This document shows, piece by piece, positions 38,450-50,478 of a stretch of 64,000 bases of DNA. The stretch comes from Asterionellopsis glacialis (Eukaryota; Bacillariophyta; Plagiogrammaphyceae; Rhaphoneidales; Asterionellopsidaceae), in assembly GCA_014885115.2 (NCBI GenBank), contig WKLE02000025.1, positions 1-64,000 of the forward strand, in the 5' to 3' direction. Every line of letters begins with the position of its first letter. Positions within the stretch are counted from its first letter, which is position 1. A program made the position numbers and the translations under genes. Under the pieces are notes generated by a model. That model saw only the letters and a list, made by a program, of their open reading frames with translations. It ran no database searches and was not told where the DNA came from.

Positions 38450-38983
38450 TTTGCGAAAATAGGTCCGTTGGCATCAATTCCTCTTCAATGTTACATCGGA
38501 ATACTGTACCGGGTAGACTACTTCAAATCTTTCACTGCGACGTCGGTCACACAGATCTCTCCCGGGTTTACCTGTGCCGTAAACTGGTTTATTCAAAAAG
38601 TCAAAAAGTGGAAGTCACATACCATGATTCTACTACAGTTTGTATTCTGTAGGGCTGGTATGGTGGAAGTTGCGTTTTTGAATCACGCAGCTCTTTCAGT
38701 TTGAAAGTTTGAATTCAATTCTCTACCGGTATTGACACACGACTCGTTTGACTCAGAAAAACGACCTTTACGTCCTTTGGTGCACATTTGACCCACTCGA
38801 CCCATACTGACTCACTCGCTCCCATGTTTTGCTGTATCTCCATCCGACAGCCGGGTGCTTTTGTGATTCTTCTTTCTCGCGACGGCTGTCGCTCGGAAAG
38901 CACCATCAGACTGGGACAACAACAAAGTATCGTCTTTGCGAGAAGCCAAAGCATCTTCGACAAACCTAGTCCGAGCTTCATCG
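38450..38983. promoter_or_regulatory. divergent promoter region, F-box cyclin / unknown secreted protein
   Basis: This spacer separates divergent start codons. Two TGACTCA words (38749-38755, 38808-38814), the consensus of AP-1/GCN4-type bZIP factors, lie in it, 170-310 bp from the two ATGs. No gene is supported inside. Confidence 0.45.
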
Positions 38984-39781
38984 ATGAGGGTGGCGCGTTT
39001 TTTGACTTTTGCTGCTTCTATTACTGGTAGCATTGCAAAGACCGCGAACAAAACGAATACTTCTGCATTTGTGGTCTCCGCTGACGGGTCCGTATCTAGA
39101 CAACAGCAAACATTGATCCACACTTCAATCTCTGGGAACGAAACGAACATGCCTACATTCGACGAAAAGTATCCTGGGACAGCTGTAGCTAGAATGTATG
39201 CTGTCCGTGCTCGAGTTGCTGAACTTGCAAATACTGGAGATTTGAATGGCAATTGGGAAGACGTACGTAGGAAAATTTTATGGGCAGGAGGATTGAAAGA
39301 TCTGCCCCATGCCCGGCCCGGACAAGGGTACACGGGGCATTCATTCAATGATTACAATCACGTCGACCTGACTACTATGGCAGATGATGTAAATGATAAT
39401 GAAAATGACGGACAAGTACAGGGAATCGCAATTGGAAACAGGCTTGGTGATGGTATCCGTATTGCCTCACTTCCTGAACTCGGTCCTGGAGGAAGTTGGT
39501 CCACGTGTGCAATGGGGTGTCATCATGACCCTCCACAGGATGTGGCCCATATACAATTCCGTTCTCGTATTGCATTCAAACTTGTATGGGTACCCAATGA
39601 AAATTTTGACACATTTGTGTTGGTGGATGACGATGGAAAGCTCTTGGCTCAAGGAAAACCATCAGACGGCCCCGCAGGTTTACCTAATCTCCGAGAACGT
39701 CAACTCAACTATCGCATCATGAAAGGATCCAAGTATGCAAAGGAAGCAGAGCTAATTGCATCTAACGTTGCTGCAGAGTAA
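38984..39781 (+). CDS. conserved protein of unknown function, probably secreted or plastid-targeted
   Basis: Single exon, 265 aa. The first ~30 residues (MRVARFLTFAASITGSIA) resemble a signal peptide. The mature part begins around a short Ala/Arg helix (YPGTAVARMYAVRARVAELA) and has strongly patterned blocks: LPHARPGQGYTGHSFNDYNH, IAIGNRLGDGIRIASLPELG, PGGSWSTC, CHHDPPQDVAHIQFRSRIAF, KLVWVPNENFDTFVLVDDDG, then NYRIMKGSKYA. I have the impression of similar unnamed proteins in other microalgae but recognise no catalytic motif; the single C-x4-C-H-H cluster could bind metal or heme, which is a guess. Start 38984 is the first ATG of the frame. Its 3' end converges with the metallophosphatase gene 70 bp away. 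Confidence 0.8.
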   Translation: MRVARFLTFAASITGSIAKTANKTNTSAFVVSADGSVSRQQQTLIHTSISGNETNMPTFDEKYPGTAVARMYAVRARVAELANTGDLNGNWEDVRRKILWAGGLKDLPHARPGQGYTGHSFNDYNHVDLTTMADDVNDNENDGQVQGIAIGNRLGDGIRIASLPELGPGGSWSTCAMGCHHDPPQDVAHIQFRSRIAFKLVWVPNENFDTFVLVDDDGKLLAQGKPSDGPAGLPNLRERQLNYRIMKGSKYAKEAELIASNVAAE

Positions 39782-39851: not shown

Positions 39852-41181
39852 CTAAAGACGTCTATCGTAACGAAAGGCATCAGCTGTATTAACGGCTTTC
39901 TTGCTCGAATTAACAGTAATTTTGAGTGGAGGTTCAATGGTTCCACCAGTAAGTTGGATCCTTAAAAAATTGCTCTGCCCTAAAAAGTTTGGCTCATATA
40001 ACCAATGGTGTCCGTCACCATGCATGAACAATACTGCGATATCCTTATCAAGCTCATTCTGGACATAATCATGTAGAGGATTGAAAAATTCAGTGTGATG
40101 CTCCGAAGGGTAGGCATGACCGAATATAATCACAGAATTTACCTGGGAAACAGTATCATGGCCACCTGTGTGATTTTCAACCATTGTCTTTACCCACGCA
40201 GCTTGCTGTGTCAGTCGAGTGCTCCACTCAACCGCATCGTGTACACTACCCCCAACGAGATTCAAACCAATAAAGAGAATCTTCTTGTGGACAAAAGCAA
40301 AATTTTCTTTTCGATCGTTAGGCCTATATACATCAAATGTGTGGTTCCAATGATTTTCAAATGCACCAAAGTGTTCGTTCCAGAAAGTCCAAGCCTCATC
40401 AACGTTGGGGCAGTCATTCCACTCTAAATTAATAATGCACCAGTAGAAAAAAGTAGCAGACACGCAAAGAATTAGCTACTGGTAATTGAACAAAGGCAAT
40501 AAAACTAAACTTATCAACTCACCATTATCTAAAGGATAGGAGCAAAAAGTAGAAAAAGATGTGAAAAACGAGATTGAATTTAATTTTTTCCATCACTCTA
40601 TGGAGCTTACCTCCCAACACAATAAATACAGGTGCTCTTGACAAACGAAGCGTTTCCGCCACGCTTCCAAACTCGTCTGATTTACAATCCATGCGTTCTG
40701 ATCCCTTCCGAATATCACCAAGATGGATAACAAATTCGGCGTCAGAGGGAATGGACTGTAGTTGAGTTGGAAGTGTTGTCATTTCAACCAAGTCGTACGG
40801 AACATCCGCAATAGCATAAAAAGTTGTAGCAACTACCAAAGGATCACTTTCTTTGGAGGGAGCAACAGAGGGAGTGAAAACTGTTGGAGATGCCATCGGA
40901 GTACTGAGCGAACTAGAATTTGTGATAGTATCTGATAGACGATTGCTTGGTGATAAAGTTGTCGGCATAGGTTTAATAGGAGAAGCACTGGTTCCAAGAT
41001 TTTTTTCATAATCTGAAGAAGGAGGATCAACCGTACTAGGTGCATGCGTCCTGTCATCATCTAGAGAAGTGACTTCATTTTCTCGACGATTACGAATAAT
41101 CAGTATGACTGCCGTTGGTGGTACAAAAACAGCTAAAGCACCAGCAATGAGAAGAACAGCTTTTCCTTTGCCTTGCCACAT
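39852..41181 (-). CDS. membrane-anchored calcineurin-like metallophosphatase
   Basis: Exons are 40611-41181, a 6-nt microexon 40523-40528 and 39852-40423; introns are 82 nt (GTAAGC..TTTAG) and 99 nt (GTGAGT..TTTAG). The product is 382 aa. A signal anchor (VLLIAGALAVFVPPTAVILI) near the N-terminus is followed by a Ser/Thr/Pro-rich stalk to ~115. The phosphatase domain has FYAIADVPYD, VIHLGDIRKG, GDNEWNDCP (completed by the microexon), IIFGHAYPSEHH and LFMHGDGHHW, standing for the D-x-x, GDx, GN[HD]x and GHxH metal-binding motifs. The DNEW form marks a subfamily with many algal members. It likely faces the ER lumen or cell exterior. Substrate is unknown. Without the microexon the reading frame is kept but GDNE is lost. 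Confidence 0.85.
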
Positions 41182-42583: not shown

Positions 42584-44398
42584 TTATGTCTTATATTGAG
42601 TGTTCGACTGCAGTTTAGTCGTAAAAGATCGTACAGAAGCTTGTATATCTACATCATCACTTTTTGCCAATGATACCTGGTCTGCCAGAAGAAGTGAAAC
42701 CTTTGATAGAACGTTGCTTGCATCTGAAAATAACTTTGCAACTGGTCTAGGAGGATGGATCCCTGCAAATGGAAATCTTCGCTTATCGTAATTGATAAGC
42801 TTCAAAACACGAACTCCATCTCGCAACCGTTGGGAAATATATTCATCGCTTGTGATGACTCGGTCAATCAAACCGACATCTAGTGCATCACAACCAAGCC
42901 AAACATCTCCAGTTGCAACATCATCAATTTGCTTTGCCAATTTTGGTCTAGCAGCTAGTACATGTCGTTTGAAGGCATTATGTGTTTTGTCAATCATTTT
43001 TTGAATTGTTTTCATTCCATCTTCAGAGACCTCGCCTATTAATCCTACCGGCGCCTTATGCTTCCCTCCTCGGAATACTAACGGTTTAACTCCCCAACTC
43101 TCAAGTGCATTGTGGATGTTTACCGTTTGACCAATTACGCCTATGCTACCAACAACTGCAAACGGTGCAGCATACAACCTTCCAGGACTAGATGTACAAG
43201 CCATCATGTACCCACCTGATGCTGCAACTTTATCTACAATGACTGTAACTTGAATTCCTGGTTCATCTCGAAGTCTCAATATTTGCTGTGCAGCAAGTCC
43301 ATACTCTGCAGCTGATCCACCAGGTGATTCTAGAAGAATAATTACTTCAAGTTCGCTATCTGTTTGTTCCGTGGAGTTCAATGATGTTGTGTTGGTCTTT
43401 TCGTTCTTACCTCTATGTTCTTCCAGTAAGAATGAAACCTTATCGTTTAGATCATGTGCCTGAGCCACCATTGTGTCTAGTCCTTTAAGCTCCAGTATGA
43501 TTGATGTGCCGTTATAACTTTTCTTAACTTCCTTACTGTGTTCCCGTGCACCACTGGTCTTATTGAAGTCACCCAGCAACGATTTTGGCATCTTTATCTG
43601 AGTTTTTTGTGATGGTGTTGACATTGCCTTGGACAATGCCATACTGTCCTTACTGTACCGTTCATTTATTCTTTCAAATGTATAATGCTGTTCTATTGGT
43701 GGTATGTATGCTGGATTGGATGGCATGAGGAGTGTAGATATCAACTGACTAAAGAGGATACTATTAGGTCCACCAAGTAATGCAGCTGCCAATGGCAATG
43801 ACGACTGTGCTCCATCACCATTCCCTCCTGACAATTTAGTTATTCGTCTCATAACGTCGAAGAAGACCAGTATCTTGATTATGTTGGTTGGTTGAATCTT
43901 AATAACATGACCAATCACTTTTCCTGTTTCTGGATCAACTATGGGTGTTCCTAAAATGTGTACAATAGCTTTCTTTAATTCCCTTCGAAAGGCAAACACC
44001 GCCAATGCAAATACAATTTTGGTTTTATTCCTTTTCAATAGTTTCAATGCATTTTGAGGTGTTTTCCGAGTCTTTGCCAATGCCTTGGCTAATGCTGATT
44101 TTGATTTTTTCGTTTCTTTCGCTTTTTTTTTGTCTACATCATCATCATCATCATCATGATGTGAATCATATTCATCTTGGTCTTCTTCCTCACTGTCCTT
44201 GTCAGAATCATGATCACGGTCGTTATCATCATCATCATCATCATCATAGTCTGGATTGATTTGTACAACATAACCATCACTTTCATCAATTTCTTCAGAA
44301 GTCAGGTCAACTTTACTACGTTTAGCATTCACTAACGTAGGCGATATGACTAGGATAAGAAGGAGAAGAAGTAAATACACGAACAAACATGATCGCAT
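42584..44398 (-). CDS. S49-family (SohB/SppA-like) serine protease
   Basis: Single exon, 604 aa. A signal peptide (LFVYLLLLLLILVISPTLVNA) precedes an Asp/His/Glu-rich low-complexity region (~50-90, encoded by ATC/ATG triplet runs) and a basic Lys/Ala stretch. Hydrophobic helices near 125-140 and 165-225 suggest membrane attachment. The protease domain is at ~345-540: LESPGGSAAEYGLAAQQIL, VIVDKVAASGGYMMAC with the catalytic Ser, then VVGSIGVIGQTVNIHNAL and GKHKAPVGLIGEVSEDG, where the partner Lys of SohB-type enzymes is expected. S49 proteases degrade signal peptides or membrane proteins in bacteria and thylakoids. Thylakoid or plastid-envelope location is possible but no AFAP-type motif is visible. 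Confidence 0.87.
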   Translation of the reverse strand: MRSCLFVYLLLLLLILVISPTLVNAKRSKVDLTSEEIDESDGYVVQINPDYDDDDDDDNDRDHDSDKDSEEEDQDEYDSHHDDDDDDVDKKKAKETKKSKSALAKALAKTRKTPQNALKLLKRNKTKIVFALAVFAFRRELKKAIVHILGTPIVDPETGKVIGHVIKIQPTNIIKILVFFDVMRRITKLSGGNGDGAQSSLPLAAALLGGPNSILFSQLISTLLMPSNPAYIPPIEQHYTFERINERYSKDSMALSKAMSTPSQKTQIKMPKSLLGDFNKTSGAREHSKEVKKSYNGTSIILELKGLDTMVAQAHDLNDKVSFLLEEHRGKNEKTNTTSLNSTEQTDSELEVIILLESPGGSAAEYGLAAQQILRLRDEPGIQVTVIVDKVAASGGYMMACTSSPGRLYAAPFAVVGSIGVIGQTVNIHNALESWGVKPLVFRGGKHKAPVGLIGEVSEDGMKTIQKMIDKTHNAFKRHVLAARPKLAKQIDDVATGDVWLGCDALDVGLIDRVITSDEYISQRLRDGVRVLKLINYDKRRFPFAGIHPPRPVAKLFSDASNVLSKVSLLLADQVSLAKSDDVDIQASVRSFTTKLQSNTQYKT

Positions 44399-48423: not shown

Positions 48424-50478
48424 ATGAGGATGTTACTTCGGTTCAAATCCTCCGGCACGTTGGTACTACCACTCATACTAGCACTAGCATGTTTAGCATC
48501 GATACCATTGCCATCCTTGGCAAGTAGTCTTTGTGGATTACCGAAACATTTACATTTGACTGTGGGGAAGGATCCATCCACGTCCATGACGGTATCCTTT
48601 GCATCACCACCGTGTAAAGACAATTTAGATGTAATACCCACAGGTGCTGTATTGTATGGTGTTAATCCAAACCAATTAGATCGTATCGTTGTAAGCTCTA
48701 CACCACCCTCACGATATGATGCTACCATTTTATTACGACGAAAAAATTCAACCATGCCATATTTATCGGATTACTTTCATCATGTACAACTGGAGGGATT
48801 GGAACCAAATTCAAAATATTATTATCGTTGTGTCATCTTGCCAGGTGATTTAGAAGCTGAACAAATACTTCAAGAACAAGAAAAAATGATGGACAATGAC
48901 ACTTCAGACGAGGAAGAAGAAGCAGATCAAGGGAGATATTTAAGATCCAAGGAAGAAGAAGCTGAAACAAAAAGAAACGTAGATTTCAATCCACGTACTC
49001 CTCATAGATTTTTATCCACAACGATTGAAAAGGAGGATTCTACGATATTCTTAACAAGTGGAGAAACACTTAATTCACATACAGTGTTATCATTACCATT
49101 GTATGATGTTACCCTACGACAACAAAGTGATGGGAATCTTGTATTGTACAAATTAAATGAAAAACCTGGTGGTGGTTCCAAGTCGGCATGGTCAGCCAAG
49201 GTGGTGTATCCAAATGGTGAATATTTTACAACACTACAGGGAGATGGTAATTTAGTTATTCGTGCTGGCACCATTGAACAACCTAAAGCTGTGATTTGGT
49301 CAAGCAACAAGGTAGGACCGGAGGATGATTATTTCCTATCGTACAATCCAAAAGAAAAGGGTATGTTTATTCAATCAGGTACACCCGAAAATCCTGGATC
49401 CAAAATTATATGGAAATCCAAAGATGGTGGCCATAAAGCAACACCACCACCACCTGAAATGAAAGGTTCCTTTATCACAGCACCTCCTCCAGGAGAAGGA
49501 GAGGGGTATACCAAACTTGTCTTTATGGGTGATTTGTCACAAACCAAACGTACACGTGATACAATGGCTGTCCTTCAAAAACATCGGGCTCGGTATGCTG
49601 CTATTATTTTGGCAGGTGATTTAGCATACCCCGACAAGGATCCACGTAAATGGGATAGTTGGTTTGATTTGATGGATGACTATAGTGTCACATTTGATTT
49701 ACCACTTCAAATTGCACCTGGTAATCATGATATTGATCGTCATGCTGAAAATGGTGAAATTTATGTTGCGTATGAAAATCGATTTCTAATGCCTCAAGTA
49801 CAACCTCCAGTTAAACCACCGTACTTTGGAGAACAATCGATTGAAATGTATAACATTCCATGGCCATTAGATTATGAATATGGTAATGCATACTATTCCT
49901 TCATTTATGGTCCATCGTACAATATCGTGTTGAGTTCTTATTCTGACTTTGCACCTGGATCTATACAATATGAATGGTTACTAAAGGAATTTGAATCAGT
50001 AGATCGAAGCTTGACACCGTGGTTACTTATCACGATGCATTGTCCCATGTACAATACATTTGCTCTTCATACCAAGGACATTCAAATTAAAAAAGCCAGA
50101 GAGATTTTAGAACCTTTATTTATCAAGAACAAGGTCAATGTTGTCTTTGCTGGACACATACATGCCTATATGCGTACCCCACCTGTCATTAATGGGACAG
50201 TGGATGTGACAGGTCCCATGAATATTATTATTGGCGATGGTGGTCGTAAGGCCTTTGCTCCCTTTCAACAGGAAGAACCTGAAGAATGGGTTGCTGTCCG
50301 TGATTCAACCTATTATGGCTATGGTACATTTGATTTGATAAATCAAACACATGCCAAGTGGGAATGGATCCATACCGCCCAAGAAGATGTATACAACTAT
50401 GTGATTAGTAAAGATGGTGAAGAACTTCCACCAGCAGGTGTAGATGAGACCTATGTTGTAAATCAGTACTTTCTATAA
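48424..50478 (+). CDS. purple acid phosphatase with inserted bulb-type lectin domain
   Basis: Single exon, 684 aa. A signal peptide (LVLPLILALACLASIPLPSLAS) leads a purple-acid-phosphatase-type fibronectin-III domain at ~40-140 (HLHLTVGKDPSTSMTVSFAS, LEGLEPNSKYYYRC). An acidic linker (~140-200) and a bulb-type (B_lectin) domain at ~205-335 follow: LRQQSDGNLVLYK contains the full QxDxNxVxY mannose-binding motif, and LQGDGNLVIR and YNPKEKGMFIQSG are the two weaker repeats. The metallophosphatase begins at ~360: VFMGDLSQT, ILAGDLAYPD, APGNHD, TMHCPMY and GHIHAYMR supply the seven metal ligands. It should be secreted or in the vacuole or cell wall, releasing phosphate from esters; such enzymes are often induced by phosphate lack. 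The lectin could hold it to glycans. Confidence 0.88.
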   Translation: MRMLLRFKSSGTLVLPLILALACLASIPLPSLASSLCGLPKHLHLTVGKDPSTSMTVSFASPPCKDNLDVIPTGAVLYGVNPNQLDRIVVSSTPPSRYDATILLRRKNSTMPYLSDYFHHVQLEGLEPNSKYYYRCVILPGDLEAEQILQEQEKMMDNDTSDEEEEADQGRYLRSKEEEAETKRNVDFNPRTPHRFLSTTIEKEDSTIFLTSGETLNSHTVLSLPLYDVTLRQQSDGNLVLYKLNEKPGGGSKSAWSAKVVYPNGEYFTTLQGDGNLVIRAGTIEQPKAVIWSSNKVGPEDDYFLSYNPKEKGMFIQSGTPENPGSKIIWKSKDGGHKATPPPPEMKGSFITAPPPGEGEGYTKLVFMGDLSQTKRTRDTMAVLQKHRARYAAIILAGDLAYPDKDPRKWDSWFDLMDDYSVTFDLPLQIAPGNHDIDRHAENGEIYVAYENRFLMPQVQPPVKPPYFGEQSIEMYNIPWPLDYEYGNAYYSFIYGPSYNIVLSSYSDFAPGSIQYEWLLKEFESVDRSLTPWLLITMHCPMYNTFALHTKDIQIKKAREILEPLFIKNKVNVVFAGHIHAYMRTPPVINGTVDVTGPMNIIIGDGGRKAFAPFQQEEPEEWVAVRDSTYYGYGTFDLINQTHAKWEWIHTAQEDVYNYVISKDGEELPPAGVDETYVVNQYFL

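Follow-up and report, generated by a model that had tools for sequence, protein, structure and literature searches.

A putative six-nucleotide microexon within the GDNE motif of a metallophosphatase-fold gene from the diatom Asterionellopsis glacialis

Can six nucleotides lying between two introns be a genuine coding exon, and how might such an exon arise? The question is raised by a gene within a 64,000-nucleotide stretch of the A. glacialis genome (assembly GCA_014885115.2, contig WKLE02000025.1, positions 1 to 64,000 of the forward strand; hereafter the window). When its exons are joined a GDNE motif is generated, half of which is contributed by the six bases ATAATG. In our reading, these bases are very probably a real coding microexon of an apparently membrane-anchored protein with a metallophosphatase fold, which is included in most functional mRNA and was born by the gain of the second of the two introns that flank it.

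Splice sites around the six bases

The codons spanning the two junctions read GGA G|AT AAT G|AG TGG AAT GAC TGC, corresponding to G D N E W N D C. The microexon thus provides the rest of the Asp codon, the whole Asn codon and the first base of the Glu codon, and the spliced product contains VFIVLGDNEWNDCPN around the motif. Both introns and the ATAATG exon had been proposed in an earlier sequence-only reading of the locus. Their coordinates and sequences match the minus strand exactly, and the 382-residue translation contains the GDNEWNDC that the joining was expected to restore (Table 1). With 6 nt between two canonical GT–AG introns, the exon lies within the size limit for microexons (≤15 nt), and through a unique splice solution it encodes residues that are conserved in the family (D and N are invariant). 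A branch-like CTAAT is found about 48 nt before the 3′ end of intron 2. Judged by eye, a hydrophobic stretch near the N-terminus in exon 1 looks like a candidate membrane anchor.

Table 1. Structure of the phosphatase gene and the basis on which each element was assigned
Feature	Position	Strand	Description	Basis
Phosphatase gene	41181-39852	minus	Joined exons give a 382-aa protein	
Exon 1	40611..41181	minus	Start codon to ...VFIVLG plus base 1 of the Asp codon	Open frame; homology
Intron 1	40610-40529	minus	82 nt, phase 1, GTAAGC..CTTTAG	Splice-site enumeration; position and phase inferred in relatives
Microexon	40528-40523	minus	ATAATG, 6 nt, symmetric 1-1	Splice-site enumeration, alignment, shuffles, genome pattern count
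Intron 2	40522-40424	minus	99 nt, phase 1, GTGAGT..ATTTAG	Splice-site enumeration, shuffles
Exon 3	39852..40423	minus	(E)WNDC... to stop; remaining catalytic domain	Open frame; homology

The zone from 40660 to 40380 contains 19 GT and 15 AG dinucleotides. When these are combined into introns of at least 40 nt, 916 two-intron GT–AG combinations are obtained, of which 147 are open and exactly one yields GDN[ED]. None of the 14 open one-intron joins gives this motif. One-intron models, other donors or acceptors and intron retention were all rejected, as GDNE is restored by none of them. 

When the 187-nt interval is dinucleotide-shuffled 20000 times, the pattern AG-AYAAYG-GT turns up in four of the shuffles, and in none of them together with a GTRAG donor. 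With this site counted, the 13-mer AGATAATGGTRAG occurs three times in the 40.3-Mb genome (both strands), and a reversed control pattern also occurs three times. The ATAATG arrangement is more than chance.

Conservation of the motif and the protein family

When residues 112-382 of the spliced protein served as the query, a homolog search returned 950 proteins at E ≤ 0.001, and the homolog counts given here rest on the best 120 of these. GDN[ED] is uninterrupted in 118 of the 120, while the remaining two carry an insert at exactly the position of the motif. The sequence-only reading had called for a comparison with family members. When 50 of 171 proteins are aligned, none departs from the G, D and N of the motif (50/50); D and N are the residues that are lost when the microexon is skipped. 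The window protein retains 13 of the 14 invariant and 37 of the 40 nearly invariant columns, the exceptions being P to A, Y to F (twice) and Q to P. A homolog is found in Phaeodactylum tricornutum (P0058, 44%). This homolog, the size of the genome (40.3 Mb) and 37 chlorophyll-binding matches point to a diatom; for one of the chlorophyll-binding proteins the five best PDB chains are fucoxanthin chlorophyll a/c proteins, two of which, when aligned, are clearly not near-identical to it. Of the bacterial loci that a genome scan confirmed, 10/10 have a contiguous GDNE. Among viral contigs, 57 stretches match a pattern and none was confirmed as a relative.

The protein belongs to the metallophosphatase fold (PF00149 superfamily). 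PF00149 is matched by ten of 50 relatives at E ≤ 0.01; the window protein itself lacks this match, and it has no NCBIfam match at E ≤ 1. Comparison of a family profile with the sequences of solved structures gave seven matches with E values of 0.25-0.97, none of which is credible. The canonical motif of calcineurin-like metallophosphatases is GNH[DE]. In GpdQ and the other calcineurin-like metallophosphatases this motif is expected where the window gene has GDNE and 118 of the 120 best homologs have GDN[ED]. The GDN[ED] proteins are probably a divergent metallophosphatase branch that works alike, and the fold together with the position of the motif suggests a metal-binding role for GDNE.

A second metallophosphatase gene lies about 7 kb away, where an open reading frame (ORF) with purple acid phosphatase domains (PF16656, PF00149 and PF14008) occupies 48424-50478 of the plus strand.

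Introns at the motif and the origin of the second intron

The position and phase of intron 1 can be inferred in 13 relatives. In two of these, P0002 and P0016, the gene model apparently runs through the in-frame intron (VVG|GEQNTL...LHL|DNEWNDC and VVG|GEFPP...PPI|DNEFNDC), in keeping with the earlier expectation that such an exon is hard for gene finders. The other 11 are unspliced-looking fragments (P0123, P0124, P0127-P0131, P0133 and P0138-P0140) in which unrelated residues lead straight into DNE[WY]NDC. In all 13 acceptor cases the codon of the residue before D ends in A, as is demanded by AG|AY. On the donor side, four relatives fit G|GTRAG in a by-eye reading of the proteins, and P0121 and P0122 read into the donor side of the intron 1 position. 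P0121 probably comes from the same species as the window gene because it differs from the window read-through ORF in just four of 218 residues (three in exon 1 and one in intron 1). Two contiguous models fit the expectation that removal of intron 1 yields GDNE: P0007 shares 81% identity with the intron 1 fragment P0130, and P0004 shares 75% with the intron 1 fragment P0124. P0134, P0137 and P0152, also unspliced-looking, seem to hold an intron a short distance upstream of GDN[ED], which would be one more intron site close to the motif. Five fragments (P0125, P0126, P0132, P0135 and P0136) begin past the motif and are uninformative on introns.

Intron 2 is absent from all 13 relatives in which its position can be read. 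Because the position of intron 1 is shared while intron 2 is missing, the microexon was most likely born when an older intron was joined, six bases downstream, by the newly gained intron 2, and we infer a gain rather than a loss. The alternative is that both introns are ancestral, that the relatives lost intron 2 and that the microexon is old. We consider this unlikely. The base of the group is left unresolved by the tree, which leaves room for such a history, but it would require two events, a gain and a loss, where a single gain suffices, and intron 2 is missing not only from the 13 readable relatives but also from three same-genome paralogs with an uninterrupted motif (C1359, C344 and C966) and from the 10/10 bacterial loci.

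Introns 1 and 2 each match only themselves in the 40.3-Mb genome at E ≤ 1 (simple repeats and very common words skipped). An introner origin was rejected, as no further copy of either intron is present at this threshold; their single-copy state is evidence against a recent introner, and a diverged introner source is possible. Nor is there a sign that the two introns are duplicates of each other. Their local alignment score of 11.0 is equalled or exceeded in 168 of 500 shuffles, and thus there is no excess similarity.

In another paralog in the genome, C603 (L012, contig positions 4131-4994, minus strand), the D and N codons of GDNEWNDC are separated by a 135-nt intron (GTAAGT..ATATAG), two bases from the position of intron 1 in the window gene. 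Introns seem to recur at the GDNEWNDC motif.

In a Ser/Thr phosphatase gene (L007, G000:C1100), the GNHE codons of the metal-site motif are immediately followed by an apparent intron (GTACGT..TTATAG).

A number of observations weigh against a microexon born by intron gain. The intron states of the relatives were read from predicted proteins and not from DNA. The same microexon is found in no relative, and conservation of the exon itself thus lends no support. The rows closest to the window gene in a 92-row tree are P0125, P0123, P0004, P0135 and P0002, of which only P0123 and P0002 have a readable intron 1, and the forks around the gene are unresolved. No spliced protein of this species is present among the best 120 of the 950 homologs, and a Pfam match at E ≤ 1 is lacking for the window protein. 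Finally, of three introns placed by homology elsewhere in the genome (donors GTAAGT, GTGAGT and GTACGT) two conform to GTRAG, and the third falls outside it.

Splicing of the microexon and comparison with known systems

The spliceosome would take out introns 1 and 2 by intron definition, which we propose because both introns are short and have GTRAG donors. Removal is likely to be stepwise since six bases can hardly accommodate two splice-site complexes simultaneously. Inclusion of ATAATG in most functional mRNA would then restore GDNEWNDC, while skipping or retention would lead to inactive or truncated products. The exon has the length of two codons and lies between two phase-1 introns, and therefore the frame is kept upon skipping, as had been claimed, and the protein then reads VLGEWNDC. 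Retention of intron 1 results in a stop at 218 amino acids and that of intron 2 in a stop at 207.

These properties could also be those of a switch, in which regulated skipping generates an in-frame, folded but presumably inactive VLGEWNDC protein without D and N, and retention generates early stops. Both residues lost are invariant (50/50), and a study of P. tricornutum reports intron retention in ∼24% and exon skipping in ∼20% of its genes (PMC5859163), which would fit such a scheme. Nevertheless, we find regulation of this kind distinctly unlikely. With two phase-1 introns, preservation of the frame is automatic. The microexon is seen in this gene only, with no sign of a conserved regulated exon, and since it occurs in no sampled relative conservation gives a regulated switch no support. 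Just as doubtful is the more elaborate proposal that the cell, tolerating an old and a new intron six bases apart within an active-site motif, employs the microexon as an all-or-none splice gate on enzyme activity and that the skipped, in-frame protein without D and N is stable. A pseudogene, or a gene expressed only in the skipped form, in which ATAATG lies between splice-like sites by coincidence, would agree with the missing spliced protein among the best homologs but is highly improbable given the chance controls (splice enumeration, genome pattern count and shuffles), the open and conserved exons with 13/14 invariant residues kept and the near-identical exon 1 ORF P0121 in another data set.

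Elsewhere in the window, the minus strand carries an ORF at 42584-44398 that encodes a peptidase S49 domain and, N-terminally, an acidic stretch rich in Asp. A 304-aa open frame without a Pfam match (38867-39781, plus strand) ends about 70 bases from the phosphatase stop (39852, minus strand); should this frame be a gene, the pair would be convergent and very closely spaced. Rfam at gathering thresholds gave zero matches within the window.

If RNA confirms the reading of a microexon born by intron gain, this would be a small microexon whose birth can be read from relatives that have the older intron without the newer one. A single gene would then harbour two introns six bases apart, a finding of relevance to arguments about near intron pairs and intron sliding. 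The locus also serves as a warning that active-site motifs may be lost or scrambled in the gene models of such genomes.

Plants already offer examples of small microexons that lie within enzyme motifs. Among open-licence papers, judged by title and the start of the abstract, none on diatom or stramenopile microexons was found. According to a plant study (PMC8831610), GH32 invertases contain a 9-nt microexon that forms part of the β-fructosidase motif (D-P-N/D-G/A) and is unannotated in rice and maize. Like ATAATG it is a very short coding exon in phase 1, measures a whole number of codons and contributes conserved residues to an enzyme motif. It is found in several flowering plants, whereas the window microexon has 6 nt, belongs to an unrelated family, is seen in one genome and has a suggested origin by intron gain. 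The same study counts 2,398 microexons of 1-15 nt in ten species, the size class to which ATAATG belongs, with 1 nt in APC11 and VPS55 and many unannotated. Of 45 microexon clusters, 35 are common to flowering plants and moss. The plant microexons are RNA-supported and mostly old, whereas the window microexon is predicted from DNA and looks recent. Plant microexons are also described as merging into a longer exon through loss of a flanking intron, the opposite of the step that we propose. In the Drosophila near intron pairs (PMC2891723), old and novel intron positions lie a few bases apart and coexistence of the old and the new intron is treated as very unlikely, whereas in the window gene both positions appear to coexist.
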